Shown here piece by piece: positions 3,989 to 49,713 of a DNA stretch of 64,000 nucleotides. The notes under the pieces are model-generated. The model had not been told where the DNA came from. It saw only the letters and a program-made list of their open reading frames with translations, and did not search any database. How positions within the stretch are numbered: position 1 is the stretch's first letter; each line of letters starts with the position of its first letter. Source of the stretch: Phaeodactylum tricornutum CCAP 1055/1 (lineage: Eukaryota > Bacillariophyta > Bacillariophyceae > Surirellales > Neidiaceae). The position numbers were made by a program, and so were the translations under genes. The stretch is from assembly GCF_000150955.2 (NCBI RefSeq), contig NC_011678.1:701518-765517 (forward strand), in the 5' to 3' direction.

Positions 3989-4008
3989 TGTTCGAGTTTC
4001 GGTAGATC

Positions 4009-4017: not shown

Positions 4018-5580
4018 ATTCGGGGTCTTTGTTTGAAAATGGAGTGAATTTCTATCTGAAGCACAGCACTTTTTCTGCTCCGTCGGCATAATGGATTTAT
4101 TTCATGCTGAGCGTAACAACGACTCCTATTTTGAAATGACCAGCGAAGAGGACGAATCTATGTATTACAACTGCCTCCTTTTCCTCGTTCAATTTCTGAT
4201 CAATGGGTCGGATGAGTTTCTCTATTGCCTTCCGCTAAAGCCTTGTACAACTCACATTTTCTTTAACCAGTGTCATCATGTCCATATGTAAAAAACAGTC
4301 GGAGTTGAAAGAAGCCTCATAAATGTCAACGGACAAAACCTGATGGACTATCCGCTTTTTAGGATTTATCGATATTTAATAATTATATCTACGTAGCTGT
4401 ATGTATAATCCCGCCGACTCCAATTTGTCTCATAAATCATTGCGAATATGAGCCAAGTTCAGTTAAATGAAAGAAGCGAGGTCGTCTGACTGTCCTGTTT
4501 CGCTTGATGCCGGCCGACGCGAAGGATCGTCAGATGAAGAAAATTGACAGATCTGGCGAAAGAATTGGCCACCGCTTTCACAGTCACTGTCAATTCGCTT
4601 CATCACTACTATTCAGATAAACCGCGACTGTTTCCACGCCTATCAAATTGCCTACAACATTCTTTTGCCCGAGTGGTTTGAAAGCTAGACAGTCAGACAG
4701 GCCTTAGAATAGTCCATGGAGCGAAAGTCCCTGTTGAAAGGTTATTCGCTTCCGTTTGCGAAGGCCACCAGTGAGGCGTATCCGCGGGCAGGTTTGTTTC
4801 CTTGTCTTATCTTCAGACTGCAGCTCTAGTGCCTCGTCGAATCACAGGTCAACCCAACGAAGTTGTGAAGCCATTTCCATGAAGAAGCTAAGACGAGCCA
4901 GGTTAATGAATGCTTCTACAGAACAAATGCATGAGTATTGGTCCCGCACGAAAAGGCATAAAGACCAATGAAAAAGGACTTGTAGTGGGAGTCTCCAGGC
5001 CATAGGCTTCCATTTCTTCCCGGACCATACCGCAAACCAAAGCCACCGCGGCCCAACTCTAGCTTACAGTTAAGAATTATTGTGAATCAACTACGTTTTC
5101 TACAATATATTTTTTAATTTCCTTGTCTTTCGTGTAGGCCCTAAGTGTGATTTTTCGTTGGGAGAGAACAACCAAGAGGCCAATGGAGGTATGTTTGAGG
5201 GGTATCGAATGTTTGTTCATCCACAGATCCGGATCCCGGTCTAAGGTGGCAGGGCAGTAACAGTCGGCGGCAACTGGTAGCTCACATGTTACCTGTCCTA
5301 AGTACCTAGAGTTATGTCATTTTAGCTAGCTAGGGAGAGTACTCCCCATCTTCCGTCACCGCAAATGTTGTCAATCTCCTAAAATCGATCGGAGATCTCG
5401 ATATTCACCGTCAGCGCGCCTTCATAAGTTCAAAAGATTGACTTTGAAGTAAGCTGGTACGTAGGCCCAATTTCTGGAGGTCATATTGTTTTTACATGTT
5501 TGCCATAGGACGGAAGTTCCGACATCTGAAGCAGCGGTTCAACAGCGATACTCGAGAAAAGGTTGACGCTAAACGGCACC

Positions 5581-6115
5581 TGGTCGTGATGGGCAACCGC
5601 GATTTTGGTATTCGATGTTTGACAGTGAATGAAGGAACGATTTTGTTGTCTTTTTAGGCCGCGGAGTTACATCAGATATTGCAGCTGGTAGGGTCGGATG
5701 ACTCCCAGTCTGTTTTTTTTTGTACCAGCGTATAGGGAGCAAAATGACGTCTCAGAAACGCGAAATTCCCAATGTTCATTAAGCTATACCTCTTATGCCT
5801 TCGGGGCTATTGTTTGGTATGCCCGTTTTGTGGCACGTGGTCGTCATGGGCAACCGCGATTTTGGTATTTCGATGTTTGACAGTGAATGAAGGAACGATT
5901 TTGTTGTCTTTTTAGGCCGCGGAGTTGCATCAGATATTGCAGCTGGTAGGGTCGGATGACTCCCAGCCTGTTTTTTTGTACCAGCGTATAGGGAGCAAAA
6001 TGACGTCTCAGAAACACGAAATTCCCAATGTTCATTAAGCTATACCTCTTATGCCTTCGGGGCTATTGTTTGGTATGCCCGTTTTGTGGCACGTGGTCGT
6101 CATGGGCAACCGCGA
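5581..6115. repeat. Tandem repeat, unit about 257 bp (copy A)
   Basis: Units begin at 5581, 5838 and 6094, each with TGGTCGT(G/C)ATGGGCAACCGCG. The third is only a short remnant before the sequence diverges. Each unit contains GACAGTGAATGAAGGAACG and the stretch TCGGATGACTCCCAG. It has no coding potential kept between units. The same array is present in copy B. Confidence 0.85.
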
Positions 6116-6642
6116 ATTTTTGTAGTCGATTTGGGCTAGCTCTCCACCGCTCATTTGAAACGCAATCTTCTGAAACTAACTGCGGAAGTACAAAACAGAT
6201 CTGACTGTGAAGAAGTATGGCACACCAGTAGCTAGCTAGAGAGGAAGCCACAGCCAATTCATCTTTACTGTTAATTGACTGTGAGTCACGTTTCGACGCC
6301 AGAACCAAAAATCGTTTTTCATGACGTCTGACGTCTCTTTGACTTCGCCCGAACAGTGAAAGATGTGTACCATATTTGGATTCTTGTCTACAGATATTTC
6401 TCGCCCTGTCCATCAGGCTGAAATTGGAGAGACGCACTCAGAGGGGTAACGGGAACCGGTTCTCTCAACGGTTCAAGTGTCTCAAGCTCACGGAGATAGA
6501 AGTAAGGCACGAATGCAAATGGGCAAAACAAAGGAAACCATTGAGTCCACAGAAAAAGGCATTGAAAAGAGTGTGCTCGACTATAGAGTAGTTTATATTT
6601 TGTTGGAACCGTTTGTTGGTTTCTGAGTTTGTTGGCGTTTTC

Positions 6643-9600
6643 CTAGTTCGTATTGAAAAACGCCATCTGAAAATCATCAACGACTAGATTCTTGTCAAAG
6701 GGAAAATCAACAATCGCCAAGCGAATATTACGGACACGACCCTGCCAGTCCGGGCCGTCTTCTGGGACAGTCCAGTAGCCCGTGAACGAATTCATGCCGT
6801 TGGCGTCCCAGGTATCCGCCGCGCTGAATCCATCGATCCTCACGTTTCGAAGAGTCCACCCATCGTCTCGGAGAGTCAGTCGAACGCGGGGACACATTTC
6901 TCCTTCTTTACTTGAATTAACGCTGCAAGAGCTTCCTTTACCAGTTGCAGCGTCGATAAGTTGAAATTTAGCGGTAAACTTCCATGTTGTTCCTTGCAAC
7001 AAACACCCATATTCAACACCATTTGGCCATTTGTACTCAGGACCTATCCAGTATCTTCGCCGGTTCCCAGAATCGTAGTACATGGAAGTCGAGGAACTGA
7101 AGCCTTCCTTGTTTGACAGACTTCCGCCGCTAGGAACTGACCAGTATCCCTCATACCCCAGATCAAAGTTGGAATTCGCGATCATCTTAGCGCATGCATT
7201 CAGGTCCGTTCCGGGACCAATCAGCGGACTTTCGTTTGGAATGCGGATTGGAGCTTGTGCTGGAATGCGGACAGGAGCCTGAGTTGGGATGCGGATAGGA
7301 GCTTGGGTTGGAGGAGGCACGGCCAGCACCGGACTCAAGGTTGGAGACTGTGCGAGACTCTTGTTCGTGTCAAGCGTCAGTACCATGCTGAAATCGTCAA
7401 CAACCAGATCCATACCAAATGGGAATTCGGAAAGTATCACTCGCATGTTTGCGACACCCCCTTGCCATCCTGAACCATTCGCTGGGATTGTCCAATAGCC
7501 TTTGAACTCGTTAAACCCATTGGCTACCCAAGTGTCCCCACCGTCGAAGCCGCTGACCCTGAAAGAATGCTGAGTCCAAGATTGGTCGCGCACAATGAGC
7601 TGCACCTGAGGGCACATTTCGCCTTCCGAGGACGAGCCTGTGTTACATGAGGCTCCCCTTCCAGTCGTTGAGTCGACAAGCTTCAAGCGAGCAGAAAACT
7701 CCCATGTGGTACCCTGCTTTAGACATTTCAAGTCCAGACCTTCTCGCCATTGGTGTGATGGTCCCACCCAGTACCGGTTGCGATTACCAGAGGCGTAGTA
7801 CATAGCTGTGGCAGATTTATAGCCAGCTGTGGTAGACAATGTACCGACTCCTTGTGCATCCCAATATCCGTTGAAACCACGCTCAAAGTCCGAGTTTGCG
7901 ATCAAGTTTCCACATGCGGCGAGAGCTGTCGTCGGACTAGGCGTGGGGGGAAAGGTGGTACCTCGAGCCTTGTAGAGAAGAGCGATATCATCATCATCCG
8001 GTGCCGTTGGGCAAAGCTTTTCCTGGAACACAATCTCGACATTCGTTGGGTACACAGGCACTCCCTTGTCGAGGAAGTAAGTGTCGTACTCCCGTCCTGA
8101 CGGGACATGCACGGCAAATCGGCGAGGCCAGGGGTGGTTAAAGTGTACGTAACCGGAGAGTACGGTACAGTCGGACGCGTCCTTGCGGTCGCATACTTTG
8201 AGCTTGTAGTCTCGACTTTGGCCCACTGGGACGTAGTAGTGAACGGTGCGGAAGCAAGTGTTGCTACAGTAGGTGTAGCATCGAGCTGCGTTTTCGGTAC
8301 ATGCACTGGGATTGACAAAGCTTGCCAGCTCCGGCGAGTTGACCATCAGAGTAGAAGGAGCAGAGGCAACGCCGTCGAGAAGAGAACCTGTGGTATCGGA
8401 CACGTACACATCACGTGCACCGGCAGACTTTCCACGACAAAAGTCGATCGAGTTTGCGTCACTTACGGTGGCGCCGGAGTACTGTGAGAACATCTCGAAC
8501 GATTTGTACCCGTCGAGTCGGGAATCCAGCTCGATTGCGGTTGAAGACGAACACACCGCGTTGGAAAATCCAGAAAATCTGACTTTGTCCAAAATGACAC
8601 CGTTGAGCTCCGAATCCATCTTTTTCTGCCATGGATTAGTCGATTGGAAAGATATCCCTTGGGCGCAAGGTGCTTGGGCAAAGCGATTCCTTCTGACCAC
8701 GTCCTTGAATAGATCGGAATAGCCAACAATGGTTGTGTCGGTGACATGAATTTCTTCGTCACGATCGATTTGAATGGCATATCTGTTGTCCGAGAACTTA
8801 TTGCCAGTCAGAACGATGTTTCGTGACCGGTGGATACGGAGCGCAAGGTGATGGTTGCGGAAGAACTTGTTGTTTTTGAAGTACTGCAGTGTTTCCGGGA
8901 TGTAACCGCTCAAATAGTAGGTCATCCCTACCCCAAATACGCTATGAACGACGTTGTCCTCGAACTTGCGGGTCGGAACCATCATAGGATCAAAGTCTTG
9001 GTGCTCGTTGGCCAGGTTTCCACGGACCAACAGCTCAAACCAAAAGCCCAGAGCTTCGGATCCGGCTACTACATTTCCGATCCACGAGTTGTCAGCGTTC
9101 GTGATCCAGAAGGTACTGGCAGACCTATCAGATTCCTTGCCATTGCTACCCATGTTCGGAATGATGACCTCCGGTTTGACGGTGCGTATGCCAATGTTTC
9201 GCACAAACTGATTGCCCGTCTCGATGCCATCTTCCAACATGTAACAGTGCCCTTTGGTGAAATAGGCTACATTTTCTTGAACAAGGAGGTTGTTAGTGCC
9301 GTGGACGACAATGCAGCGCTGGTTGGAATTGCGAATGGTATTCTTGACTACTACCGAGCCTGAGACATCCCCGCACATGTGAAAGTGGATTGGGTATCTA
9401 CCCAAGAGGCCTTCTTGTCCGAAGTTAACGAGTTCCACTCCTTCGATACGCTGCCTCACTCGGGGAGTGTGCATGATCCAAAAGTGGCCACCCTTCGTTC
9501 CGGGGGCCCCTTCAAAGACAATGTTGCGTGACAGCAAGGCTACCTCGGTGGCAAAGTCTGGGCTGTCGCGAAGCGTGACCGGACGGTTGATGGGTTGGTC

Positions 9601-10471
9601 GAGATTGAGACGGACGCTATTGGAGCCGACGTTCGAAATGCTGGTGATTTTACGAACTTGCTCGCCAAAGTAACCTTGGTGTTCGGAGGTGATAACAATA
9701 GTTGCACCAGTAGCCCATTTATTACGGACCGAATTGGACACAACAATAGCCGAGCTACCAAGGACGTCTTGGATATGTAGCCAGGTTGGTGTGCTAGTAG
9801 GTAGGCCATTGACTGCAACAATTAGGGATTTCTGTAAGTGCCGACAGTCACGTATATGTGTGCAGGAAATGCGGATGCCATTTTCGCAACAATCCGAACT
9901 TACGATTGACCTTCCCACCAGCCACTGCAATGGATCGAGCTCCTGCATCGCAATTTCCTCCACATTTTGCGGCGTTGCTGCTGATCGGTGCGAACGACGC
10001 ACTCTCAGTACCTTGCATTACAAACCGTACATCGGGGTTTCCATCAACTGGTTTAGAACTTCTCATCTCAAGCTCGCCTTGGACCGACACCAAGTTCGTC
10101 CGAACCGTGAGTCGGTATCCGTCTGGAAACACTAGTTTGCCTCGTATGTCGATGCCATCATTTAGTGTTAGTTGCGGTCCCGGATAGTCCATTGTAACGC
10201 ACTTGCCACATGGAATAATGACTCTGTTTGATCGAACAGAGTCATTGCCAAACATCGTGACGAAAGATGAACAAGGGGCTTTACCGATGGCAGCATTGCA
10301 CCTCAAAGGAACAAAATTTTCGACAAGACGCCGAGATAAGGTTGTTGTTAGCGCTTCAGAATCGCCGGCTTCGCTCGCAGACATCGAAGAATTACCACGA
10401 ATCAGGTTGCTGTTGCACTGGCTAGCGCCAAGGAAAAGAATGGCTAAGCCGAGGACAAGGTGAGAGTACAT
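6643..10471 (-). CDS. Secreted G8-domain / beta-helix protein with two C-terminal carbohydrate-binding-like modules (gene 2, copy A)
   Basis: Two exons: 9904-10471 and 6643-9812, with a 91-nt GT-AG intron (9813-9903, donor GTAAGT). They encode 1245 residues. The ATG at 10471 opens a signal peptide (MYSHLVLGLAILFLGASQC). Exon 1 holds the G8 domain (VIIPCGKC, LTLNDGIDIRGKLVFPD). Exon 2 holds the beta-helix region with GRYPIHFHMCGD and a first CBM4/9-like module. It then differs from gene 1: a Pro-rich linker with three QAP(I/V)RIP repeats leads to a second related module (MIANSNFDLGYEGYW ... NLVVDDFQMAFF). The extra 225 or so residues suggest bivalent glycan binding (inference). The G8 exon is only about half identical to that of gene 1, while exon 2 is nearly identical. 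It is divergent from GPN3, with 1.4 kb between their starts. Confidence 0.86.
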
Positions 10472-10520
10472 CGTTAGCCTTCCCTTGTGTTGTTCTCTCT
10501 CGAGAGCTTTTCAAAAATGG

Positions 10521-10529
10521 TGACTGTGA
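10521..10529 (+). promoter_or_regulatory. TGACTGTGA motif upstream of G8 gene 2
   Basis: Exact copy of the recurrent 9-mer, 49 nt upstream of the ATG at 10471 and in the orientation opposite to that gene. It is preserved at 27659-27667 in copy B. Confidence 0.35.
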
Positions 10530-11753
10530 GTTGCAATTGTGATCACAAAAAATTATGAGCAGAAAAGAGCATGAAAATGTAACATTCAAACAGTACCTCG
10601 ATTACCAAATCCTTGGTATCAAGGTCTTTTTGACATCGGTTGGTCATTCTTCGATTCTCCGTCATTTTTATTTCTTCAGCAAAATGGATCTGGTAGGGTG
10701 TACTAGTCTGGGCACGATCGGTCTACTCCAACACGGTCATTTCCATCAATCTTCAGAGTGAGAGGTCTCCCAAAGCATCTGGTGGAACTCTTTGGGATTG
10801 TACGCCTCGAAGAAAAGTATGACTTACATTAGGGAAAGCCCAAAATGAGGTCCACTTTCAGACTCATATCGATGGGTCTTTTGACATTTGAATGGTTTTT
10901 CTTAGGAATATCATCATTTTTTTAGTATAGCACTTTTTGACCTTACGCTATTTTTTTACGGTCATTTCTGATAGAGATGAAGAACGCTACCCCAAATGCT
11001 CTGATACTCCTTCGAAGAAAACAAGCGAACAGAAGTATGTGAGACAAATTTAAACGAGTCACCACTGCTCCCTGGACTATATCCAAAGTCAGTTCAAACT
11101 GGTAGGGTCTTTTGGCATTTATTTACGTTGGTCATTCTTTCGTGCCGTCCATTTTTTTGTGAAGCAAATCTTGGGTCCTTTTTCCGTGCCCACACGCACA
11201 ATCAGGTTGCTCTCTAAGTATGTAGCTTTCCGTGGGAGTCGTCATGCGGAGTAGACGTACAAGGGAAGGAGTGCCTTGGTCCTAGAATGCTTTGTATAGG
11301 AGAGAAACGTGTGTGGATGAAACGGAAATGATGCTTACGTTAATTTGCATTTACTCCATCACTGTTCTTGCTTCAAAGCAGGATGCGTTTTGTCTTGCGC
11401 AGAAACTGTCGCCATTTCGGGCTCCACAAGTGGTAGAGAAAGGTTTTCGAGGTAGCAGGGAAAAGACATCTTTTGTCCCGAAATTCTGCTCGTATGCCAA
11501 AGGTTTTCACTGTTATTGCAACTTAGTATGCCCTGCTTTTTCGGAAGGTGCACACACCGAAAATTGATGTTGTCGAGGGCCTTATGTTGGTATTAACATT
11601 AACTGTAATGTAAATTTTTTCGTTACAGTCGGTCAACAGAGTAACAGCCAATTCAAAAAAGTAATTTGTTCGTCAGTCGTCGCCTTCGGCAAGCTCCTCA
11701 CACTGCGATCATCGCAGACTCCATCGGCAGAAATCGTCTTTTGACAAAAGAGT

Positions 11754-11762
11754 TCACAGTCA
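11754..11762 (-). promoter_or_regulatory. TGACTGTGA motif upstream of GPN3 (copy A)
   Basis: Exact copy of the recurrent 9-mer, 127 nt before the GPN3 start. It is preserved at 28880-28888 in copy B although neighbouring bases differ. Confidence 0.35.
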
Positions 11763-11889
11763 ATAACGTGTAAATAGCTAGGCGTATTTATACGAAGAAG
11801 TACGAAGTCCGAAGCGATCTGGTTGGAGCACTTCGAGACATCTAAAAGCTGTCTTTCAGCCTTGCGTTTACCGAAAGCAACCAGAAGAT

Positions 11890-12932
11890 ATGGGCCGCTG
11901 CGGGATTCAAATCGTGATGGTACGTTTATTTTTGAAACAGTCCGTGATGCCTTCCAGTCGCCGAAAGTCCGCAACATTTATGTGCAGCAAACGAGGTTTA
12001 TTTGTCACTTTGTCCCTCACGCGCCTCTGATCGGATGACAGGGTCCGGCTGGATCAGGAAAGAGCACGTACTGTCAAGCCATGCAGGAACACGCCACGAC
12101 ACTGGCCGGTACGCGTCGACGCCGCATTCACGTCGCCAATCTCGATCCGGCGGCCGAAATATTTCAGTACGACACCGCCTTTGACGTCCGGGATTTGATT
12201 TCTGTTGAGGAAGTCATGGAAGAACTGGGCCTCGGTCCTAACGGGGGTCTGCTGTACTGTATGGAGTATCTTGTGGAAAATTTGGATTGGCTGCACGATG
12301 AATTGGAGATGTTCCAAGACGACGAATATTTGATTTTGGATTGTCCGGGACAACTGGAGCTCTACACTCACGTGCCGATCATGCGACGAATTCTGGATTC
12401 GATGCGAATATGGGGATATGAATCTTCCATGGTCTCCGTTTTTTGTGTCGACGCCGCCTTCTTAATCGACGCCAGTAAATTTTTGTCGGGTAGTCTGTTA
12501 AGCCTATCCGCCATGGTGGCGTTGGAGTTGCCCCACGTGAACGTCCTGACGAAATGTGATCTAATGCCGAGAGAAGACGTGGAAAGGATTTTGGGGTACG
12601 GTAGTGCAACGCAATTATGGGATTTAGACCAAGATCGACAATCACTTCTCGTCACGGATTTGGATGATGACATGAACGAAGGAAAAGGCGAAGAGCGCCA
12701 TCGACACAGACGCTTAGAAGCCCGTCGGCGACAGCGAAATCGTTTGACCGATGCTATAGGACAGCTATTGGATGACTACGCTATGGTGAGCTTCATTCCG
12801 CTGAATTTGAATGAGGAAGATTCCATCGAGCACGTTTTAGCAACAGTCGATCATGCTATTCAATATGGAGAAGACTTGGAAATCAGGGGTGCTGAGGAAG
12901 ACGATAATAACGGGAACCCCGATGACCATTAA
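11890..12932 (+). CDS. GPN3: GPN-loop GTPase 3 (copy A)
   Basis: Two exons: a 30-nt first exon (11890-11919, MGRCGIQIVM) and 12042-12932, with a 122-nt GT-AG intron (11920-12041). They encode 306 residues. The splice joins MGRCGIQIVM to GPAGSGKST, rebuilding the family's N-terminus and P-loop; without it the protein would lack its nucleotide-binding loop. Other marks are VANLDPAAE, the family-defining GPN triad in GLGPNGGL (about residues 75-77), the DCPGQLELYTH switch and the TKCDL base-recognition motif. GPN GTPases act as dimers in assembly and nuclear import of RNA polymerase II; GPN3 pairs with GPN1. The length fits (human GPN3 has 284 residues). An internal Arg/Glu-rich segment (EERHRHRRLEARRRQR) adds a little. 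It is convergent with the aspartic protease, the stop codons being 51 nt apart. Confidence 0.93.
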
Positions 12933-12983
12933 GTATATCGAAGATTCTTAATTGTCAAAAGAACCTTTACAAACGCTTCCGTT

Positions 12984-14357
12984 TTAATGAGTCGCTGCTG
13001 GTGTACTGTTCGCAATTCCACATAGGGCCGGGGCGACACCAAAACGATTGCCTTGGACGTCAAAGAGCAAGTCATAGCCCACCATTGTATTCAATCCCAC
13101 CACGGCACCTTGTACTTCGTCCGCGTACAGGCGGTTCATTAGTTTCCTCCGTCCCGTCCAGGGCCGCAAAGGCTCGGGAAGGTCTTCCATGAAATTTTTA
13201 GGCAGGGCCTGTAAGGTTACGTTGTTGGCGAGCTCAAAGGTCACGATGGGCAGCGATCTAAACTCATCGTATGTGTAGGCGTACGTGCTCGACGGTTGAA
13301 AGGGTGTGTTGGAAAGGCGCGCCCATATTTCTCGCATACGACCCGCAACTGCCTTGGGGAGATACGTGTCCGTCGTTCCCGAGTCCAGTATAGTACCCTT
13401 GCCCTCTGCAAAGGCTTCGACCAATGCATGCTCGACAACAGTGTCGTGCTGGTCATTGCTTGTCAAGCATTCGTCCCCTACAAACACTCGGACTACGTGG
13501 ACAGCATACCAACTCTGAGTGGAAGTGAACGGCGTGTATTTCATCGATTCCGTATGCTTGTCTCGTAGTGGTCCTCCCAGTCCAATGTAGCCTTCAAAAG
13601 GTGTCATGCATAGGGAGAATGACTCGCGAGGAATGACATTTTCCTTCCACAATCGCTTAATGAGCGAGAGGTCGGACCGTTCCAAACCCAATATACCGTT
13701 GGCGTACTGTGTTCGGAACAATCCCCTGACTTTTTGCTGGCATCCGAACGCAAAGATAATCGTAAAGCTCACGTACTGTTCCAAACTGGATATCTCCGGT
13801 CCTCCCAGGACAAACGTATCGCTGACTTCCACTGCTGTCCAGCTGGAGCCTTCAGTATACCTTTGATTAATACCACACTTTTGTTCCGCTGCGCATTCCT
13901 GGATGCCGCTGAGCAGACAGGATCCACACTGCGTGTATCGCAGCGTGCTGGACCGCTGGGGGTCCAAATGGGGGAACGGGTGTGCGTGCGTCGTCCCGCA
14001 TTGCGAACAGGGCTCGCACGCGGTCGCCGTCAACCGCGACCCGGTGTCGACAATCAGCGTTTGCGCCTGCGGCGGTTCCCCCATCCAAGCCGTCACGTGA
14101 TGCGTACCCGCGACGGCGTGCAGAGGCAGACGGACGGTCGCATTCGGAACAAGTTCCACGGTATTACCGTTGTCGTGACGTCTGCGAAGGTGTGGTTGCG
14201 ACAATGGTAGCGAGGCGGCGACCGTTTCTTCAGCGGGTTGGGAGGCCGTTTTCCCCAATATCAGAAGACAAACGACGCGAGTACATTGCTGCGTCAAATG
14301 CGATTGTCGTCGTCGTCTTCTACTTCCTCTCCTCTGTGGTACCATATTGCAATACAT
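12984..14357 (-). CDS. Secreted pepsin-type (A1) aspartic protease (copy A)
   Basis: This is 457 residues from the ATG at 14357; a second ATG at 14345 is equally usable. The open frame continues upstream only from a GTG. A basic stretch (RRRRRQ) followed by a hydrophobic run (RVVCLLILG) suggests a signal peptide or signal anchor. The first catalytic site is VDTGS (Asp about residue 104) and the second LDSGTTD (Asp about residue 325), as in bilobal A1 peptidases. A Cys-rich insertion follows the first site (CEPCSQCG ... CGSCLLSGIQEC), as in other secreted or vacuolar A1 enzymes with extra disulfides. It probably cleaves proteins in the secretory or vacuolar route or outside the cell (inference). 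The open frame of copy B is identical in protein sequence. Confidence 0.87.
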   Translation of the reverse strand: MYCNMVPQRRGSRRRRRQSHLTQQCTRVVCLLILGKTASQPAEETVAASLPLSQPHLRRRHDNGNTVELVPNATVRLPLHAVAGTHHVTAWMGEPPQAQTLIVDTGSRLTATACEPCSQCGTTHAHPFPHLDPQRSSTLRYTQCGSCLLSGIQECAAEQKCGINQRYTEGSSWTAVEVSDTFVLGGPEISSLEQYVSFTIIFAFGCQQKVRGLFRTQYANGILGLERSDLSLIKRLWKENVIPRESFSLCMTPFEGYIGLGGPLRDKHTESMKYTPFTSTQSWYAVHVVRVFVGDECLTSNDQHDTVVEHALVEAFAEGKGTILDSGTTDTYLPKAVAGRMREIWARLSNTPFQPSSTYAYTYDEFRSLPIVTFELANNVTLQALPKNFMEDLPEPLRPWTGRRKLMNRLYADEVQGAVVGLNTMVGYDLLFDVQGNRFGVAPALCGIANSTPAATH

Positions 14358-15270
14358 GTATGACCTTGTGGGTCTTAAAGGTTGTAAAGGAAAGCTCCGA
14401 CAGAGCAGACGTACTGTTTGTAGGTAATGTAATATAAAGTCCAAAGCGACGATGTGCTTCACGATCTTATGAATGAATCTCGGACACGAAACGGATAGCG
14501 ATTCTGTGTCCTGGCTCTACTGACAGTGAAGTCCTTTCATGATTAAAATGGATCACAACTAACTGTCGTCGCGACATTAGTCAAAGCCAAGCCTTTCTAA
14601 TTCTCATGGTTTCTCAGTCACCGTCAACGCCACAACTTTCCATCGAAGCTAAGTCCTCTAATGTTACTGATAGCTCAGAATATCCGTACATTAGCATGCC
14701 GAGACTGAAGAATATGTGTATTTTACCACGACGTCACTACCAGATGACACAAAATACCGCCGTTCCTTACGTCTAAGAGGCTTGCTTCTCTATGCGAAGC
14801 TCGAGCCTGCTATTGGATATTCTTTGTATCGAAGTAGACCTTGAGAAACCGCGGACCGTGTCATTTGGCCAAGCGTACAATATGATACATAATAAATTAG
14901 CGGGTTTGACCTGTTCTGATATTGAACGCTAATAAGATAGGATTAAGCCTTTGCGGTACTAACTGTAAGCTGGCGGGTGAACCAATTCATGCTCTTCGGT
15001 TCCTTTCGTACATCCAAACAAGCATTGAAACTAAAGTCTCCACGAATTCAAAGAATCTCGTCATTTGCTTCTCTATTTACTTACTATAAAGCTATTTCAA
15101 GGTATTGACTCAACAAAGACAGGTTTGAACGGATAAACGGTTGCACTCCTCGCAAAAACAGCGAAGGCGGTGCTTGATGAATGCCGATGCGAAACAACCT
15201 CCATTTTCCCGGTCCGATTAAAACAAGATCATGTCGACGTGGGATCAGCAAAAAGCATAGCCGATGCTTT
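14358..15270. promoter_or_regulatory. Region between aspartic protease and tricorn homologue (copy A)
   Basis: These 913 bp hold the promoter of the aspartic protease and the 3' flank of the tricorn gene, both read on the minus strand. A TGACAGTGAA variant of the recurrent motif lies at 14521-14530, 164 nt from the protease ATG. No gene was seen. Confidence 0.4.
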
Positions 15271-19908: not shown

Positions 19909-20691
19909 TCTTTCACCGTCCGTCGAAACCTGGAAGCCTTGAAACCTAAAAGCCTTGAAGGTGCTTCGTCAAAGGCTGGGCGGGAGAACGTTGTGTATGG
20001 GCAGGCCAGCGAGGTATCGAGCATACAAAGTAATGTTTTCACTGTCGGATAGGCGTGGCACTGCTGGTCGCTGCCGTAACGGCTCCCAATCATCCAGGTT
20101 ACTTACAGTTGTTACTGTTACTGTTAGTCCTGCTGCTGTCGGAGATTTCACGCCCTATCCCATTTTTGAAAAGTAACGAATCACGTACTATGCCCCATCC
20201 TCGGTGGAGATATAAACAGCGCGCAGAAATTGGCAGCAAAGAACTGTCCAGTCGAGCATTCAGAGATACCCGTCGGAAAAAGCATGATAAGTGAAAAAGT
20301 GGAAATTCGCGAGGACAATGCAATTCGACTATGTTTGGACTACTGCAGAGTCATATATTAGATCATCAATTACTGACCAGCCGACAGAGAAAGGGAATCG
20401 TAAATAATTTCAAAAACAGAAAAGCGACCGCTCAGACATATCTCAATAAACATTTTGGAATTGAGAGTCATTATTAACTCCTTTGGGCCTTTTGAATACC
20501 TTTCGAAAAAGACTCATTCGAGAGTGTTCCCTAGTGTCCACTCTCTTGCCGTGGTTGCTTCTCGGTTGCTGAACTGACTGTGAAATCCAACGAGTTCCAC
20601 CGAGTAGAATCGATAGACCCTCAAGGCCTTGCACTGCAGTGCCATACACTGGTAAAAAAGGTGAGCGGAGTATTCATTCGAACGATTGGAC
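19909..20691. promoter_or_regulatory. Divergent intergenic region between tricorn and acidic-protein genes (copy A)
   Basis: This 783-bp stretch separates two genes that are transcribed apart. It contains a TATAAA at 20211-20216, several ACTGTTA/TTACAGT repeats around 20100-20130, and TGACTGTGA at 20575-20583. I saw no coding frame kept between the copies. Confidence 0.4.
20575..20583 (+). promoter_or_regulatory. TGACTGTGA motif upstream of acidic protein (copy A)
   Basis: Exact 9-mer in the same orientation as the gene, 108 nt before its ATG at 20692. The equivalent site in copy B is 37707-37715. Confidence 0.38.
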
Positions 20692-30058: not shown

Positions 30059-30110
30059 GTATATCGAAGATTCTTAATTGTCAAAAAAAACCTTTACAAA
30101 CGCTTCCGTT

Positions 30111-31484
30111 TTAATGAGTCGCTGCTGGTGTACTGTTCGCAATTCCACATAGGGCCGGGGCGACACCAAAACGATTGCCTTGGACGTCAAAGAGCAAGTC
30201 ATAGCCCACCATTGTATTCAATCCCACCACGGCACCTTGTACTTCGTCCGCGTACAGGCGGTTCATTAGTTTCCTCCGTCCCGTCCAGGGCCGCAAAGGC
30301 TCGGGAAGGTCTTCCATGAAATTTTTAGGCAGGGCCTGTAAGGTTACGTTGTTGGCGAGCTCAAAGGTCACGATGGGCAGCGATCTAAACTCATCGTATG
30401 TGTAGGCGTACGTGCTCGACGGTTGAAAGGGCGTGTTGGAAAGGCGCGCCCATATTTCTCGCATACGACCCGCAACTGCCTTGGGGAGATACGTGTCCGT
30501 CGTTCCCGAGTCCAGTATAGTACCCTTGCCCTCTGCAAAGGCTTCGACCAATGCATGCTCGACAACAGTGTCGTGCTGGTCATTGCTTGTCAAGCATTCG
30601 TCCCCTACAAACACTCGGACTACGTGGACAGCATACCAACTCTGAGTGGAAGTGAACGGCGTGTATTTCATCGATTCCGTATGCTTGTCTCGTAGTGGTC
30701 CTCCCAGTCCAATGTAGCCTTCAAAAGGTGTCATGCATAGGGAGAACGACTCGCGAGGAATGACATTTTCCTTCCACAATCGCTTAATGAGCGAGAGGTC
30801 GGACCGTTCCAAACCCAATATACCGTTGGCGTACTGTGTTCGGAACAATCCCCTGACTTTTTGCTGGCATCCGAACGCAAAGATAATCGTAAAGCTCACG
30901 TACTGTTCCAAACTGGATATTTCCGGTCCTCCCAGGACAAACGTATCGCTGACTTCCACTGCTGTCCAGCTGGAGCCTTCGGTATACCTTTGATTAATAC
31001 CACACTTTTGTTCCGCTGCGCATTCCTGGATGCCGCTGAGCAGACAGGATCCACACTGCGTGTATCGCAGCGTGCTGGACCGCTGGGGGTCCAAATGGGG
31101 GAACGGGTGTGCGTGCGTCGTCCCGCATTGCGAACAGGGCTCGCACGCGGTCGCCGTCAACCGCGACCCGGTGTCGACAATCAGCGTTTGCGCCTGCGGC
31201 GGTTCCCCCATCCAAGCCGTCACGTGATGCGTACCCGCGACGGCGTGCAGAGGCAGACGGACGGTCGCATTCGGAACAAGTTCCACGGTATTACCGTTGT
31301 CGTGACGTCTGCGAAGGTGTGGTTGCGACAATGGTAGCGAGGCGGCGACCGTTTCTTCAGCGGGTTGGGAGGCCGTTTTCCCCAATATCAGAAGACAAAC
31401 GACGCGAGTACATTGCTGCGTCAAATGCGATTGTCGTCGTCGTCTTCTACTTCCTCTCCTCTGTGGTACCATATTGCAATACAT
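30111..31484 (-). CDS. Secreted pepsin-type (A1) aspartic protease (copy B)
   Basis: This is 457 residues from the ATG at 31484 (alternative ATG at 31472), identical in protein sequence to copy A although a few synonymous changes are present. It has both catalytic motifs (VDTGS and LDSGTTD) and the Cys-rich insertion. Protein identity with some silent change shows either purifying selection or simple allelic relationship. Confidence 0.87.
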   Translation of the reverse strand: MYCNMVPQRRGSRRRRRQSHLTQQCTRVVCLLILGKTASQPAEETVAASLPLSQPHLRRRHDNGNTVELVPNATVRLPLHAVAGTHHVTAWMGEPPQAQTLIVDTGSRLTATACEPCSQCGTTHAHPFPHLDPQRSSTLRYTQCGSCLLSGIQECAAEQKCGINQRYTEGSSWTAVEVSDTFVLGGPEISSLEQYVSFTIIFAFGCQQKVRGLFRTQYANGILGLERSDLSLIKRLWKENVIPRESFSLCMTPFEGYIGLGGPLRDKHTESMKYTPFTSTQSWYAVHVVRVFVGDECLTSNDQHDTVVEHALVEAFAEGKGTILDSGTTDTYLPKAVAGRMREIWARLSNTPFQPSSTYAYTYDEFRSLPIVTFELANNVTLQALPKNFMEDLPEPLRPWTGRRKLMNRLYADEVQGAVVGLNTMVGYDLLFDVQGNRFGVAPALCGIANSTPAATH

Positions 31485-32398
31485 GTATGACCTTGTGGGT
31501 CTTAAAGGTTGTAAAGGAAAGCTCCGACAGAGCAGACGTACTGTTTGTAGGTAATGTAATATAAAGTCCAAAGCGACGATGTGCTTCACGATCTTATGAA
31601 TGAATCTCGGACACGAAACGGATAGCGATTCTGTGTCCTGGCTCTACTGACAGTGAAGTCCTTTCATGATTAAAATGGATCACAACTAACTGTCGTCGCG
31701 ACATTAGTCAAAGCCAAGCCTTTCTAATTCTCATGGTTTCTCAGTCACCGTCAACGCCACAACTTTCCATCGAAGCTAAGTCCTCTAATGTTACTGATAG
31801 CTCAGAATATCCGTACATTAGCATGCCGAGACTGAAGAATATGTGTATTTTACCACGACGTCACTACCAGATGACACAAAATACCGCCGTTCCTTACGTC
31901 TAAGAGGCTTGCTTCTCTATGCGAAGCTCGAGCCTGCTATTGGATATTCTTTGTATCGAAGTAGACCTTGAGAAACCGCGGACCGTGTCATTTGGCCAAG
32001 CGTACAATAGGATACATAATAGATTAGCGGGTTTGACCTGTTCTGATATTGAACGCTAATAAGATAGGATTAAGCCTTTGCGGTACTAACTGTAAGCTGG
32101 CGGGTGAACCAATTCATGCTCTTTCGGTTCCTTTCGTACATCCAAACAAGCATTGAAACTAAAGGCTCCACGAATTCAAAGAATCTCGTCATTTGCTTCT
32201 CTATTTACTTACTATAAAGCTATTTCAAGGTATTGACTCAACAAAGACAGGTTTGAACGGATAAACGGTTGCACTCCTCGCAAAAACAGCGAAGGCGGTG
32301 CTCGATGAATGCCGATGCGAAACAACCTCCATTTTCCCGGTCCGATTAAAACAAGATCATGTCGACGTGGGATCAGCAAAAAGCATAGCCGATGCTTT
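31485..32398. promoter_or_regulatory. Region between aspartic protease and tricorn homologue (copy B)
   Basis: This is the counterpart of 14358-15270 and nearly identical. It keeps the TGACAGTGAA variant upstream of the protease start. No gene was seen. Confidence 0.4.
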
Positions 32399-35300
32399 TC
32401 ACACTGAACATGTGTCATGAAGCGACATATCGTGTTTGGGCTCCAGAGGACGAGGATGAATTACAGGCTCTTCCTCAAGCCATTCTGCCAGCTCTGCAAT
32501 CGCTCGTTCTAGCTGTTCGTCGTGTCCACTGTAGGCGGTCCGAGGATTGTTGTCCACCTCGACGTCTGGCACTACACCTTGTTGTTCGATGCCCATTCCC
32601 CAGCCAAGCCTATCGTTGAAGGTACCGATTTCGGGTGCAGAAGCAATACCGCCGTCCACCAGCCGATTGTCCGACGACAGCCAAATGCCACCGCCCCAGG
32701 TCCTGGTTCCGACCAATCGTCCTAGTCCTAGCTCCGAAATACCTCGGGACACTCCTTCCCCATCGCTCGCCGTGTGCTCGTCGATCAGAACCACGATGTG
32801 ACCACGAAACGCAAACTGTTCGTCCCAATCCAAATCTCCTGTACGTACACCAACGCGGTCTCCCCAATACATCCAGGCTTTGCGCTGCAAAAGAGTGAGA
32901 ATCCAAGAGTCGATGTTGCCGCCGCGATTGTGGCGCACATCAAGTATCAGAGCTTGTGCGTCATAGTCCGGGAAGAAGTTGCGTGCAAATGCATTCATGT
33001 CATGCTGTAACATAGATTGCATGTGAATGTATGCCACTGAGAAACCAGCCTTGACAGCCAGCTCCTTAGCCTTTTGTCGCGTTCGCCATTCCCAGGCTTG
33101 GTACCGTAAATCCGCGGCAGCCATTGGAGTGATTGGCACCACAATCAAGGGCTCGGAGATCATTTCGTTCGTTGTACTTCGTACATTCCCAGACTCTAAA
33201 CGAAGGACTTCAAGGCGCACACTTCGACCCGCACTTCCACGTAGTAGCATGTGGAGATCCGTTGCGTGCATGACGCTTTCACCGTTGACCCCAACTACGA
33301 CGTCGCCAACTTCTAGCCCATTCTGGCCGGTCGGCTCCAACGCTTGCCCTGAGACAGGGCAATACACCGCGTCTCCATTGACGGTGTTGAAGTCTGGATC
33401 TCGTTGAGGAATTTCGGTTATCATGTACCCCTTCCACTCTGGTACTCTCTTGAATGTGACGCCTAAACTGGCCGGCTCGTGAAGGGAGATTTTCTTCGTA
33501 TCACCCCCAAAAGGAAGGCTATACTCGCCTCCGTAAACAAAGACGTGCAGAGCACTCAATTCAGAAGCCATTTGTGCCAAGACATCGTCCAGCTCTTCGC
33601 GTTTCGTGCACCTTACAACAAGAGATTTGTAACGACCATGTACTCCAGCCCAATCTACTTGGTGCATGTCGGCATCGTAAAAGTAGTCCCGTAGCATTCT
33701 CCAAGCATCGTTGTACATTTGTTCGTACTCCAACTGAGGCCAGATTGAAACGGCCATGTTATTTGTGTCGACAATGCTCTCGTCAGATGCGGCATCGAGG
33801 AACGCTGCCATCATGCCTGCAGCGGTGTTTGACATAGTTTTCGTCGTCCCGGAAGCAAAGACAAGGTAAAGAAAGTCTCTAGTTGTACTCAGCCCCCATC
33901 CAACGACCGATATCGATGATTTCTCAATATCAACACCATCGCTTGGGTATGGGTCAGCAACAAATAATTTGACTTTTCGTCCGTCATCAGTATTTTCGAC
34001 GAGAGCAACACTGCCATCGTCCTGTGCTTGTGTCAAAATCGCTAAGTAGTGAGCATCCGGAACGTGAGCAAGCCTGTACGCCCGACGAGCAAAAGTCAAG
34101 TCCTTCCCACTAAAATCAATTTCCATGTCCGAAGGAAATACGGTCTTACGGTCTGCTGTAGTTGTTGGGGCGGATGTGGGAGCCTTGGTGTCGTCCAACA
34201 GACGGGAAATCGCGTGGCTACGATATCGCTGAAGCTTCCGTGCGACTATCGCGCGCGCTTGAACGTCTTGGTCCTTTTCCAGTCGACGACTTGAGTCCTT
34301 GCTATCACCAACCATGAGAGCCTCCAGCTGCTTGTCTAACGCCATGAGCTGGTCAACAAAGGCTTCAGCTACACCACCACCCGCAAATCGCCCCATAAAC
34401 GCATCCTCTTTGTCGCCCAAATTGACAGAAGTCAAAGGAAGACCGTACAATGCACTCATAGTTGGAAAATATGGCGATGGGGCACGAGATCCCCAAGGAC
34501 TAGAAACCTCGGTTTGAATATCTCGGTCTGAAAGAAAGTAGAGCGTAGTCGCTACCTCATCCGGTCTTCCAGTGCCTTGGAGATCGGCCAGGACTTCTTC
34601 GATAGCCCGAGTCGACAGGTCTCTACCGGTGATGCCCCAAAAGGGTTCGTACGAATTGAAACGGGAAGGTGTAGCTTGGACAATCCGACCAATGTTAATA
34701 TCTACCACCTCAGTTGGATCTTCTGGAGAGTTAGGGTCTCCACAATCGACAATACTAATAACCTGAAATTGATTGGTGGCCGGATGACTGATGGCTAAGT
34801 AGCGCCCACCTGGACTCCAAACAAGCTCTGCTGACGCGCCATTGATAGGCTCTCCCAGTTCGTTCTTAGATGGCAAAACAGTATAGTTGGTTTCATTTTG
34901 ATAGAGTGGTACGGTTGTCAGACACACTCGTCCATCCGTGTCGGTCCAAGCCATTCGCCGACCGCAGGGGCTGACTTTAACACTATCAGACCGGACCGAG
35001 CCCAAACCCCCTTGACGAGTCGATCCGCCATTTTCATAGCCACCCAAGAAGGGTTTTGGCAAAAGATCTGATGCGGAAAACATGTTGACGGCATCCGTGT
35101 CAATCGGTAAGAGGAAAAAGGAGTGCTCCGCCGTCGGACTGCGTGGATCCGTGGCCAAAACGATGGCCATCCGACGTTTTTCTTGGTTCCGATCGGCCAA
35201 AATGGGAACGTACTGCGCACTCAAAACTCGCATAGATCCGGCAGTCATGGTTCCTGGTGCTACACGATACCGGCGAAGTGGAAGATTTTGACCGGCGCCT

Positions 35301-37036
35301 TGATACGTCTTGCTGTGTGCCACGTTTTCCGAGACTGGAGCGACAAACAACTGCCCCCTTACTGTCAACAAGGCTGCCTGTGTACCTACGGCCGTTTCGA
35401 AAACATCCAGTGACTTTAAATCGCGCAGCACATTCACGACTCGGATACGCTCTTGGAGTCCGTGAAAGTCGGAATAGACTAGAACCGGTAACCGAGTCGG
35501 TGTGGGAGGCGTGGAGCCGGTATTGAGGCTTTGCAACATGGTTTGGACTTGCTCCGCCGTCAATTCGAATAAATCTGCTCCGATCCGCATTACAATTTTT
35601 TTCGAGATAGGATCGACGGCATACTCTTGCAACGCTAGTCCTTCCATTTGACACGCCACGTTAGTAATCTGTATTGGTTTGGGCATCACGAAGTGTCCCT
35701 TTTTCAGGTTCGACGAAGTCGGTAGGGGCGTTGCCCATAGATTCATTGTGGATGGCCGATTATCCGTGTTGCGATCTGACAAGAACAATAAATACTTCTC
35801 TGTTGCAGTCTCATATATACTTGGGGTTTTCGAAGTGCCGTTGTAGTTGGGTGTAAGGGGATAGGCCAGAGCTTGTCCATCGCAATATGCCCACAGAGCT
35901 TCAGCTGTCCCACCCACATAGCGAGCTGTATGGGAACTTTGCTTGAAACGGACAAAGTACCAGCAACCTTCCTCAAAAAAACCTTCGGTCGCTTGCGCCA
36001 AGGGAACGGGTGTGACATCCAAAACGGCTTTGCCACGCATGGCCTGATCCACCGTTAAATATTGATGTTGTTGTTGCAATCGAATCGTGTACAAGCGCAT
36101 ATCCGGCAAGCTGATTTGATTCGAATCAGCCACAACGACTAGCGTATCGACATCTGACCATCCCGCAATCGCCGAGACGCCGTAGGCACTGTCGAAGAAG
36201 GAAACCTGCTTGGTACGACGGGTGACGAGATCCATGACGTAGGCTTCGCGTCGGGAAGTGTAGGTAGCGGTAAAGGCCACGAGGGATCGATTGGGATGTA
36301 AAACCGGCGTCCGTACGTTCCCTTCAGTCGTAGTCAGCTTGACGGCCGGGAGTCGTTGTGCACGTGAGTTCTCGGTAGTCTCCAAGTACGTCAAGTATAA
36401 GTCTCCTTCGCTGACAAAGACGACAGTATTGTTGACGATACTAGGTTGCGTGAGATATCCCAGTCCTTCTTCAGTGGCTAGGCCGTTGGTACCGACATGT
36501 ACAGAAGAGGAGGGAACGACACGAATGTGCTCCGCGGAAAGATTGTACGGATTCCAGGTAGCGTAAGCATTGGGATCATGAGCAACGGTAAATCCGGACA
36601 CCGACGAGGATCCACCCTCGACCGCAATTGGGGCGCCTCCCTTTCCGTCACTTGTTGCTGGAGGATTATTTGGACTCCATCTTTGCCCCAGATTGGTAGT
36701 TTGGTGCTCACTTGCCAGCAAGTAGTGACGAAAGCCCAACAAGGCCACTCCGAGTAAGGCAACTACCCCGATAATCGTCAACCATACGTAAAGCAGAACG
36801 TTGCCCCGACGAAACGAGGAGACTGAAAATGAATTGGATGGTGGTGCTCTTCGTCTCAACGCTGGAGATCCACGCTGCTCCAAGTCTGGATCACTCAGTT
36901 CGTCGTCTTCGTCTTCGTCGTGAGCCTTGACGCTCGAGTATTCCTGCAACGAAACGCGCTGCACAAGATCGTGATCCCCACCGTTTACCGACGGCAAGTC
37001 CTCATACGAGGAATCCGCCGCCGTTTGGTTTCCCAT
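32399..37036 (-). CDS. Membrane-anchored tricorn protease homologue (copy B)
   Basis: This is 1545 residues with the same architecture as copy A: acidic tail, one transmembrane segment at about 79-102, propeller region, C1 helices, PDZ and S41-like catalytic core. I count about seven substitutions (for example ISKKIV for ILKKIV, EKDQDV for EKGQDV, DGRKVKL for DGRIVKL, YFYDADM for YFYDTDM, SLGVTFK for SLGATFK). The catalytic Ser, His and Glu motifs and the ALHVF Leu are unchanged. Confidence 0.9.
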   Translation of the reverse strand: MGNQTAADSSYEDLPSVNGGDHDLVQRVSLQEYSSVKAHDEDEDDELSDPDLEQRGSPALRRRAPPSNSFSVSSFRRGNVLLYVWLTIIGVVALLGVALLGFRHYLLASEHQTTNLGQRWSPNNPPATSDGKGGAPIAVEGGSSSVSGFTVAHDPNAYATWNPYNLSAEHIRVVPSSSVHVGTNGLATEEGLGYLTQPSIVNNTVVFVSEGDLYLTYLETTENSRAQRLPAVKLTTTEGNVRTPVLHPNRSLVAFTATYTSRREAYVMDLVTRRTKQVSFFDSAYGVSAIAGWSDVDTLVVVADSNQISLPDMRLYTIRLQQQHQYLTVDQAMRGKAVLDVTPVPLAQATEGFFEEGCWYFVRFKQSSHTARYVGGTAEALWAYCDGQALAYPLTPNYNGTSKTPSIYETATEKYLLFLSDRNTDNRPSTMNLWATPLPTSSNLKKGHFVMPKPIQITNVACQMEGLALQEYAVDPISKKIVMRIGADLFELTAEQVQTMLQSLNTGSTPPTPTRLPVLVYSDFHGLQERIRVVNVLRDLKSLDVFETAVGTQAALLTVRGQLFVAPVSENVAHSKTYQGAGQNLPLRRYRVAPGTMTAGSMRVLSAQYVPILADRNQEKRRMAIVLATDPRSPTAEHSFFLLPIDTDAVNMFSASDLLPKPFLGGYENGGSTRQGGLGSVRSDSVKVSPCGRRMAWTDTDGRVCLTTVPLYQNETNYTVLPSKNELGEPINGASAELVWSPGGRYLAISHPATNQFQVISIVDCGDPNSPEDPTEVVDINIGRIVQATPSRFNSYEPFWGITGRDLSTRAIEEVLADLQGTGRPDEVATTLYFLSDRDIQTEVSSPWGSRAPSPYFPTMSALYGLPLTSVNLGDKEDAFMGRFAGGGVAEAFVDQLMALDKQLEALMVGDSKDSSRRLEKDQDVQARAIVARKLQRYRSHAISRLLDDTKAPTSAPTTTADRKTVFPSDMEIDFSGKDLTFARRAYRLAHVPDAHYLAILTQAQDDGSVALVENTDDGRKVKLFVADPYPSDGVDIEKSSISVVGWGLSTTRDFLYLVFASGTTKTMSNTAAGMMAAFLDAASDESIVDTNNMAVSIWPQLEYEQMYNDAWRMLRDYFYDADMHQVDWAGVHGRYKSLVVRCTKREELDDVLAQMASELSALHVFVYGGEYSLPFGGDTKKISLHEPASLGVTFKRVPEWKGYMITEIPQRDPDFNTVNGDAVYCPVSGQALEPTGQNGLEVGDVVVGVNGESVMHATDLHMLLRGSAGRSVRLEVLRLESGNVRSTTNEMISEPLIVVPITPMAAADLRYQAWEWRTRQKAKELAVKAGFSVAYIHMQSMLQHDMNAFARNFFPDYDAQALILDVRHNRGGNIDSWILTLLQRKAWMYWGDRVGVRTGDLDWDEQFAFRGHIVVLIDEHTASDGEGVSRGISELGLGRLVGTRTWGGGIWLSSDNRLVDGGIASAPEIGTFNDRLGWGMGIEQQGVVPDVEVDNNPRTAYSGHDEQLERAIAELAEWLEEEPVIHPRPLEPKHDMSLHDTCSV

Positions 37037-37823
37037 TCTTTCACCGTCCGTCGAAACCTGGAAGCCTTGAAACCTAAAAGCCTTGAAGGTGCTTCGTCAA
37101 AGGCTGGGCGGGAGAACGTTGTGTATGGGCAGGCCAGCGAGGTATTGAGCATACAAAGTAATGTTTTCACTGTCGGATAGGCGTGGCACTGCTGGTCGCT
37201 GCCGTAACGGCTCCCAATCATCCAGGTTACTTACAGTTGCTACTGTTACTGTTAGTCCTGCTGCTGTCTGAGATTTCACGCCCTATCCCATTTTTGAAAA
37301 GTAACGAATCACGTACTATGCCCCATCCTCGGTGGAGATATAAACAGCGCGCAGAAATTGGCAGCAACGAACTGTCCAGTCGAGCATTCAGAGATACCCG
37401 TCGGAAAAAGCATGATAAGTGGAAAAGTGTAAATTCGCGAGGACAATGCAATTCGACTATGTTTGGACTACTGCAGAGTCATATATTAGATCATCAATTA
37501 CTGACCAGCCGACAGAGAAAGGGAATCGTAAATAATTTCAAAAACAGAAAAACGACCGCTCAGACATATCTCAATAAACATTTTGGAATTGAGAGTCATT
37601 ATTAACCCCTTTGGGCCTTTTGAATACCTTTCGAAAAAGACTCATTCGAGAGTGTTCCCTATTGTCCACTCTCCCTTTTGCCGTGGTTGCTTCTCGGTTG
37701 CTGAACTGACTGTGAAATCCAACGAGTTCCACCGAGTAGAATCGATAGACCCTCAAGGCCTTGCACTGCAGTGCCATACACTGGTAAAAAAGGTGAGCGG
37801 AGTATTCATTCGAACGATTGGAC
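37037..37823. promoter_or_regulatory. Divergent intergenic region between tricorn and acidic-protein genes (copy B)
   Basis: This is the counterpart of 19909-20691. The ACTGTTA/TTACAGT cluster and the TATAAA are retained, and TGACTGTGA lies at 37707-37715, 108 nt before the ATG of the acidic protein. A few indels distinguish it from copy A. No gene was called. Confidence 0.4.
37707..37715 (+). promoter_or_regulatory. TGACTGTGA motif upstream of acidic protein (copy B)
   Basis: Exact 9-mer in gene orientation, 108 nt from the ATG, at the same spacing as in copy A even though the sequence just upstream carries an indel. Confidence 0.38.
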
Positions 37824-40800
37824 ATGTCGTGGTTTAGTAGCCGTCGCGCCAAGCCAGCCAAAGAGAGCGCGTTCAATACCGACGACAAACCACAAAATGC
37901 TTTTGGAGGATTCGGCGCCGTGGCGCACTTTGACGACGGTCCCTTGCGAGACCCTCGGATGGCCAACGACTTTCTCGAAAGGGGAACGAAAAACGAAAAT
38001 ATTCATACGCATTCGGACACCAGTAGCGACGGTGACGACGCTGGTTCCGAGGCAGAGTCGGGTTCTCTCAGCGACGATTCCTTCGTAGGAGGTCCGCTCA
38101 TGTACGAGTCAACGTGTTCCGACGATTCTATCACTGTAGACACTGCCGATCCAGATTCTCAGGATTGGAATCTACGAAAAGCCAATAACTTTCTGCAGGA
38201 TTTTTACGACAAGGAGGACCTGGAACGGGTGTCGCAAGAACAGCACCGTTTAAGGTCGACTGACGACGAGAACGATGCAGAATCGGCATCGTCTTCCGAC
38301 CAGTCTTCGGAAGAAGGCGAGTCCGATTCGGAAACGCTAGAAAAATCCCACTCTCCTCTGCATAAAACATGTAAAGATGCCGATATTTGTCACGAAGACC
38401 AGGATCTGGGTACGGCCAAAATAGACACTGCTACTACCTTATCAAGCCACGATGCAGAAAAATTTCCGATAGCCCCGGAAAGCTTTGACGAGGGATATGG
38501 CGCGGAGCATGATGGCTATGATGTTGCTCCCAACGAGTCCCAGATACATGAATGTTCTGAAACAGAGACGAGTTCGCAGCATGTAGTTGTCCACGATTTT
38601 TCTACAGCAAGCGCCTTGAGACCGGCTGTAGCTGAAGCAAGGTCTTTCCGCAACCTTGACAACTCACATAGCGATGTCAATCTTGACGCGACAGCTTCTT
38701 TCACAACTAGCCTCCAGGAATCATCCACTGGTAGCGAAACTTTTGATAGGATGGATCCGAAAATTGATGCTTCCAAACTGGGCTGCGATAGCGCTAGCTT
38801 AGATCACGAAGCAACTTTTGGCTCTGGAAACGACCGCGATCCATCGCGGCACATGCGAGGAGACTTTCAGGGGGCATCGGCTGTTGATAGCGCTTATGGC
38901 AGCTTGAGCGACGGATCTCACAATAGTAAATGCAATCGAGGTAATCATTCCGGGTCTGGCTTGGGCGAAATGTTTGGTGTTGGAAATGCGCTCGCCGCGA
39001 ACGGTGGCTTTGGAGTTTCTCGTTGCGATGAAGACAAAGAAACTTCCTCCAATGATTCAAGCTCTGATCTCTTGGTCTCTGGGAATTCACCTGTCCACAA
39101 TAAGCATCGACATGAAGCTGACTCGAGTTTAGAACTTGATGCACTAGACTGTGGCGGTAGTAGAGGCGATATTTATCCAAATCAAAATGAACTTTTCTCT
39201 CTCGAAAGAAGGGAAGCCGAATCCAGAGAAGTAAGCGAGTCAACCACTCCATTGCAAACTGAACATTCAGAAAAGAAGGTGGTATCCACCTTCCACGAAG
39301 AATATGTTGTCAACATACACGACGTTCGTGTTGCGCTGGATTCCGAGAATGAATTACCTTCGAAAGATCCACTAAACGACCAGGATAAGCCTGATAAAGG
39401 CAACACTGATTGCGTACCTACTGCCATCGTACAAGATAGATTCTCGGACAAGCATTCGTCTGCAGAAATTGAAAGTCTTCTGTGCTCTGGTGATGAAAGT
39501 ACGGGTGATGGTTTGTTGGGAGAGAGATCGTCTTCCCATTCCTCGTCGGAACCTCGAAAGTCATGCGATCAATCACTACAAGGAGAGAAAGAAATCTTTA
39601 TTGACGCTAGTCGGGAGCACATCTGTTCTGATGGTAACTTTCAACAAGATAGGCAAGCTTTGTATATCACGAATTGCGTTGAATGCTCTGAGGATGGAGT
39701 TCCTTTCTCAGGCCGATTCCAATCGTGTCTATCTCAATGGAAGAAGCAATCAAGTCCTCCTCAGTCTAATCGGTCAGGACGTGGTCTACGAGCATTTGAT
39801 GTACTTGAAGAGATTCCATTGAAAGATGGTCGTATTGAGTCGTTTTCCTTGAGAGGTTCCGATGGTCTTCATGATTCCCCAAATACTCGTTCAGGATCGG
39901 CTGCAACCAGTTGCTTCCATCCTTGTCATAGGCGACAGGAATCAGGTGGTATGGAAAGCGAAGTTAAGCGGTCTTGCGTTTTCCAAGACCATTCAGACAA
40001 TTGTCATGATGCCTCCACTTCTCATCTATCTCGAGACGAAGACGAAAGTTCGCGACCAGAGGAGGAAGGTTTCGTTCCAAGAGGACTCGTGGATGATGAC
40101 GACGACGAATGCAAATCAGATGACTCAAATGTTGACTACGTCAATAGTCCAACGACTGCTTTTGAGGATGATATTTACGCTAGCCGATCAGGTGATTTTG
40201 AAAGGGAATCATTTATGTCAGCTGCGCCTGCTGTGGAATCCTCTCGAAGGACAGATCTTTCTCCAGCAATGGAGAAAAGGAGCAACTCCTTAAACGCAGT
40301 TGTCGCACCGGATACTGCACGCCTCCCTGCATTGCAGACTAGATCAGAACAACGTAGTCAGCAAAAAGGCGCCTCCGCAGAAGGTACAGTTTTGGATCAA
40401 ACTTTTGCCGTCAGGCTCCTGTGGGTGGCAAAAGAGAGGCTATCGATCAATGTTGTGAACACGAATTGACTTTCTGGCGACCAGATCCCCCTGAATCTGA
40501 CCGTGATACGAAATCTTCAAAATCTTGTGTTTCGTCGGGACTAGTGAGCACTTCGAATAGTTGTTTGTCAGAACGTTCGCCGGTCTTGGAGGCTGGCTCT
40601 GGCTGGAAGCATTCCAGCATCTCAGCTAGAGAAGTTATTTCTGAAAGGAACGAAACGATTGCTTCGTCTCACCTTACCAACCACCAAAAAACCGACCTTT
40701 CCTTTAAAAGCTCGTTTGTTGCAGTTGAGGAAGCGAATTGTGAGGCGAGGTCAACACGAGAGTCGAAGGCTGAGCAGGATAAACGAAAGCAAAGCCCGGA

Positions 40801-49660: not shown

Positions 49661-49713
49661 AATGAACTTTCAGCTTTCCCGTGAATGTACATTTCAGTGC
49701 TTATATTAACCTA

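Follow-up and report, generated by a model that had tools for sequence, protein, structure and literature searches.

In other assemblies, two described situations come close to the one reported here. Among overlapping-contig cases in the chimpanzee assembly, 11,113 of 13,576 (82%) align within 10 bp or less of the contig ends, and the median identity of falsely duplicated contigs is 98.1% (Kelley and Salzberg, 2010; PMC2864568), while a gap between the copies and high local heterozygosity have been named as signs of false duplication (Ko et al., 2022; PMC9516828). The Sanger reference of Phaeodactylum tricornutum (27.4 Mb, 88 scaffolds, 48.8% G+C, 9.6x depth, 179 contigs, 69 gaps on the main scaffolds), when set against resolved haplotypes, was a mixture of the two in all five chromosomes examined, and it was concluded that the reference mixes both (Filloramo et al., 2021; PMC8147415). 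Large differences between the haplotypes, and overlaps among the old scaffolds, have also been described (Giguere et al., 2022; PMC9266582). Genome-wide heterozygosity is 0.98%, and tracts of loss of heterozygosity (LOH) extend from 20 kb upwards; LOH is present on chromosome 10 in the wild type of that study (Russo et al., 2018; PMC6174884).

The window analysed here is a 64,000-nucleotide stretch, bases 701518-765517 of contig 10 (976,485 bases) in an assembly of 27,450,724 bases and 88 contigs, and in it some 17 kb are found twice, on either side of a gap. Judging from the sequence, we consider it highly probable (about 0.9) that this doubling is an assembly artefact in which two overlapping allelic contigs of one locus were laid in tandem.

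Geometry of the doubled block and its junction

Comparison of the window with itself by blastn gave a single end-to-end alignment of 17,103 columns at 97.9% identity between 4469-21538 (copy A, the end of the left contig) and 21634-38670 (copy B, the start of the right contig), both in forward orientation. The copies are 17,070 and 17,037 bases long, a net difference of 33 bases, and differ in a MAFFT alignment by 259 substitutions and 28 indels; the substitutions amount to 1.5% of 17,003 sites overall. The sequence-only reading of this DNA had proposed the same coordinates, a size difference of about 33 bp and a junction of 95 N, and all three hold. That gap, at 21539-21633, is the sole run of N in the window; the one lone N elsewhere, at 21659, stands 26 bases into copy B, a position that would fit a low-quality contig end.

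The alignment is flush with the gap, copy A running to the last base before it and copy B starting from the first base after it, with 0 unmatched bases on either side. The facing ends of two adjacent contigs on one scaffold thus align to each other with a gap between them, as in duplicated overlapping contigs and, for the gap, false heterotype duplications, and the A/B junction, which in a true tandem segmental duplication would be sequenced, consists entirely of N. The outer edges of the doubled block have 0 and 1 base in common, which says little either way. To the left, the unique flank (1-4468) runs into copy A with no gap between them, and its only similarity to the block is through its G8 gene.

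Genes of the block and the neighbouring G8 gene

A Pfam search of copy A and its flanks found a CEMIP beta-helix, a G8 domain, ATP_bind_1, an aspartyl protease and the tricorn C1, PDZ and S41 domains, and the genes of copy B were assigned through matching ORFs; the earlier claim that one gene set is doubled is borne out. Each copy contains a G8/CEMIP-type gene on the minus strand (6643-10471, from ORFs, Pfam and a splice model; 23781-27609, from ORFs and a splice model), a GPN-loop GTPase gene on the plus strand (12081-12932 and 29207-30058), and, on the minus strand, genes for an aspartyl protease (12984-14357 and 30111-31484) and a tricorn-type protease (15271-19908 and 32399-37036). Among solved chains the closest to the ATP_bind_1 protein is GPN-loop GTPase 3 (hence GPN3-like), and this gene and the two protease genes are open frames of the same length in both copies. 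The remaining gene, on the plus strand, would encode an acidic protein without a Pfam match at E 0.001. In copy A it is a fragment of 847 nt (20692-21538; 282 codons and one base) that ends at the gap, and its 881-aa ORF (37824-40469) is whole only across copy B, where it crosses the right edge of the copy and runs on into unique sequence, so a gene is indeed cut mid-codon left of the gap and complete only in copy B, as had been proposed.

Just beyond the block, two 2-kb bins at 40001-44000 have AT skews of 0.19 and 0.23 (A over T). The A excess covers the last part of the acidic-protein ORF and the greater part of a 794-aa ORF at 42062-44446, for which Pfam likewise gave no match at E 0.001.

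The G8 gene of the block has a candidate 79-nt intron common to A and B, chosen among several candidates, and the spliced models, which are provisional, are open and of equal length in both copies. A broken copy-B allele, suggested by a stop at codon 9, was considered and rejected: the stop lies just upstream of the candidate intron, in a frame other than that of the first exon. Downstream of this minus-strand gene, both copies contain just over two repeats of a 256-258 bp unit (5575-6130 and 22716-23267), and the end of this repeat is overlapped by the 500-base bin of the block (5969-6468) in which A and B diverge most, at 5.5%.

A further G8/CEMIP-type gene (gene 1, 864-3988, minus strand) lies outside the doubled block. 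An ORF with the CEMIP beta-helix (864-2969) and another with the G8 domain (3347-3988) would together make up this gene, which aligns at 95.9% identity over 886-3451 with 7391-9952 of copy A; a further 53 bases, at 3535-3587, also match the block. Gene 1 is probably a real paralogue, with no gap between it and copy A, and the left contig carries two G8 genes. When the three G8 copies were compared (886-3451, 7391-9952 and 24529-27082), 44 of the differing sites had copy B as the odd one out, 32 copy A and 22 gene 1, counts that exclude a divergent right tail in which, apart from one A-odd site, almost everything is a gene-1-only site or a gap column. The A-odd and B-odd sites, which alone entered the runs test, are clustered (18 runs against a shuffle mean of 38, with 0 of 10,000 shuffles as low), gene 1 matching copy A at some clusters and copy B at others. 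This mosaic suggests gene conversion between the neighbouring paralogues, and such conversion may have raised the allelic divergence of the G8 gene.

The gene count had been suspected of being inflated. That suspicion stands for the GPN3, tricorn and aspartic protease genes, and for the G8 genes it needs amending, as three become two and not one, gene 1 being outside the block; the true counts here are likely to be two G8 genes and a single gene each for GPN3, tricorn and aspartic protease.

Divergence between the copies and their uniqueness in the genome

The two copies differ at 211 of 7,463 sites (2.83%) up to position 11,999 and at 48 of 9,540 (0.50%) beyond it, with a step at ~12.0 kb (2dlnL 157; no value above 18.5 arose in 200 permutations, in which every tenth site was scanned). 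The substitutions between the copies had been described as scattered; they are present, but an even scatter is not what we find, as their density is strongly two-phase. Non-coding positions show the same step, with 117 differences in 3,714 (3.15%) on the left and 14 in 1,828 (0.77%) on the right (Fisher p 2.7e-9), and so do synonymous sites, with 57 differences in 877 sites of the G8 gene and 21 in 1,811 pooled over the four genes on the right, including the truncated acidic-protein fragment (dS 0.068 against 0.012, uncorrected). Constraint alone therefore does not account for the step. The value of 1.5% for the whole block is compatible with the published heterozygosity of 0.98%, on either side of which the two halves stand, although the left half alone, at 2.8%, is high, nearly three times the published genome mean.

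Searches of the genome with 4469-9468, 9400-12100 and 12000-21538, which score only the best candidates, so that copy numbers are lower bounds, recovered A and B and, as the only other close match, gene 1 next to the block, with 98% identity over 2.1 kb followed by 87% over 557 bases; distant relatives lie on two other contigs, C19 (70-76%) and C1 (67-73%). On the right, 8 kb of flank (46000-54000) found their own place and one 52-base match only. The query 38671-48670 returned one match at 89% over ~420 query bases, on C55, and missed its own place, so it is silent on a second copy. The first 200 of the 976 kb of the same chromosome contain one gap (794-19517, 18.7 kb), which has no flanking duplication, and a single self-match of more than 300 bp, at 76%.

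The first 3 kb of each of five small contigs, which their size and number lead us to regard as unplaced, served as queries. None of these queries aligned along its full length with a large contig as an allele would, and the searches give no measure of allelic divergence: C46 matched itself only, C64 had matches elsewhere limited to its first 413 bases, C50 matched dispersed repeats along its first half and a single other place at 70%, C58 matched two other small contigs, and C40 had matches of 73-88% in small contigs and in C5. In the 3-kb query from C58 (1-3000), C58 and C59 are identical (100%), and C64 has a 97% copy. The assembly does contain redundant pieces of this kind, probably unplaced scaffolds, which need not be alleles.

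Probable allelic contigs, the alternatives and comparable cases

From the observed geometry, the divergence step and the number of copies found, we infer that the copies are alleles, and the manner in which the assembler forked can be pictured as follows. The contig that ends at 21538 on the left and the one that begins at 21634 on the right would represent two haplotypes with a 17-kb overlap. An allelic difference of 2.8% over ~7.5 kb was probably enough to keep a Sanger assembler from merging them; the left contig would have continued as a side branch into the less divergent portion, while the right contig carried the chromosome onward, and the scaffolder would then have placed both end to end with a short gap. 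The sequence-only reading had likewise proposed two haplotype contigs placed end to end, and the flush geometry, the identity, the divergence around the strain's heterozygosity and the published mixture of haplotypes in the reference all support it. The doubled genes are probably not real extra genes, because two parental versions of one region would have been placed side by side.

Some observations tell against such an artefact or do not help it: an older duplicate would likewise agree with the left-half divergence (2.8%; dS 0.068 in the G8 gene), an assembler would ordinarily be thought to merge right halves that differ by 0.5%, the small contigs queried offer no allelic match to a large contig, and the other gap in the first 200 kb of the chromosome has no duplication beside it. 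A real 17-kb tandem duplication of the GPN3, aspartic protease and tricorn-type protease genes and of a third G8/CEMIP gene, beside an older G8 duplication and made more uniform in one half by recent gene conversion, strikes us as quite improbable. In the form in which the duplication is fixed on both homologues, its right 9.5 kb later homogenised by gene conversion and the gap on the junction by chance, we regard it as very improbable, even though the left-half divergence is high for alleles, an apparently true local duplication of the G8 gene adjoins the block and the mosaic among the G8 copies suggests that conversion occurs there. A single duplication without later conversion predicts even divergence, whereas alleles of a diploid that undergoes recombination and loses heterozygosity should diverge unevenly; neutral divergence is not even here, and although later conversion could still explain this, a separate event of 9.5 kb is then needed. 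The gap must also fall on the junction, and a 95-base gap placed at random in 34.1 kb would by our computation overlap it in ~0.28% of cases, a figure that assumes a random gap position, which assemblers do not strictly obey. Nor do the first 200 kb of the chromosome, with their sole self-match above 300 bp at 76%, speak for such duplications.

Published haplotype differences are substantial and include retrotransposon insertions in one haplotype (Giguere et al., 2022, PMC9266582; Filloramo et al., 2021, PMC8147415), which lends some plausibility to a tandem duplication on one homologue only, that is, a heterozygous copy-number variant. The same coincidence of gap and junction is needed, however, and three versions of the sequence are predicted, whereas the searches of the assembly recovered just two, although collapse may have hidden a third; of the explanations considered, this is the one to which we give the least credence.

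If the doubling is indeed an artefact of assembly, gene counts are doubled and false paralogues are listed at these reference coordinates, reads are lost to double mapping, heterozygous sites here are missed, and guide RNAs or primers could be designed as if for two genes. A literature search, with supplements outside its reach, returned no record of this locus as an artefact. The artefact would be an ordinary one of a well-known type, and the value of describing it lies in a local correction to a widely used diatom reference.

Mate pairs were the deciding test for the duplicated overlapping contigs of Kelley and Salzberg (2010; PMC2864568), and half read depth and single-copy k-mers mark the false heterotype duplications of Ko et al. 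(2022; PMC9516828); the comparison made here is one of assembled sequence. Most falsely duplicated contigs are shorter than 2 kb, a few reaching 28 kb in cow (PMC2864568), so that 17 kb is long. In other respects the locus resembles both. With the overlapping contigs it has in common that neighbouring contigs in a Sanger assembly of a diploid are separated by a gap, at an identity of 97.9% and 0 bp from the contig ends, compared with a median of 98.1% and, in most cases, 10 bp or less there (PMC2864568); with the false heterotype duplications it shares the gap between copies, a local divergence above the genome mean, and genes that are duplicated and truncated (PMC9516828).
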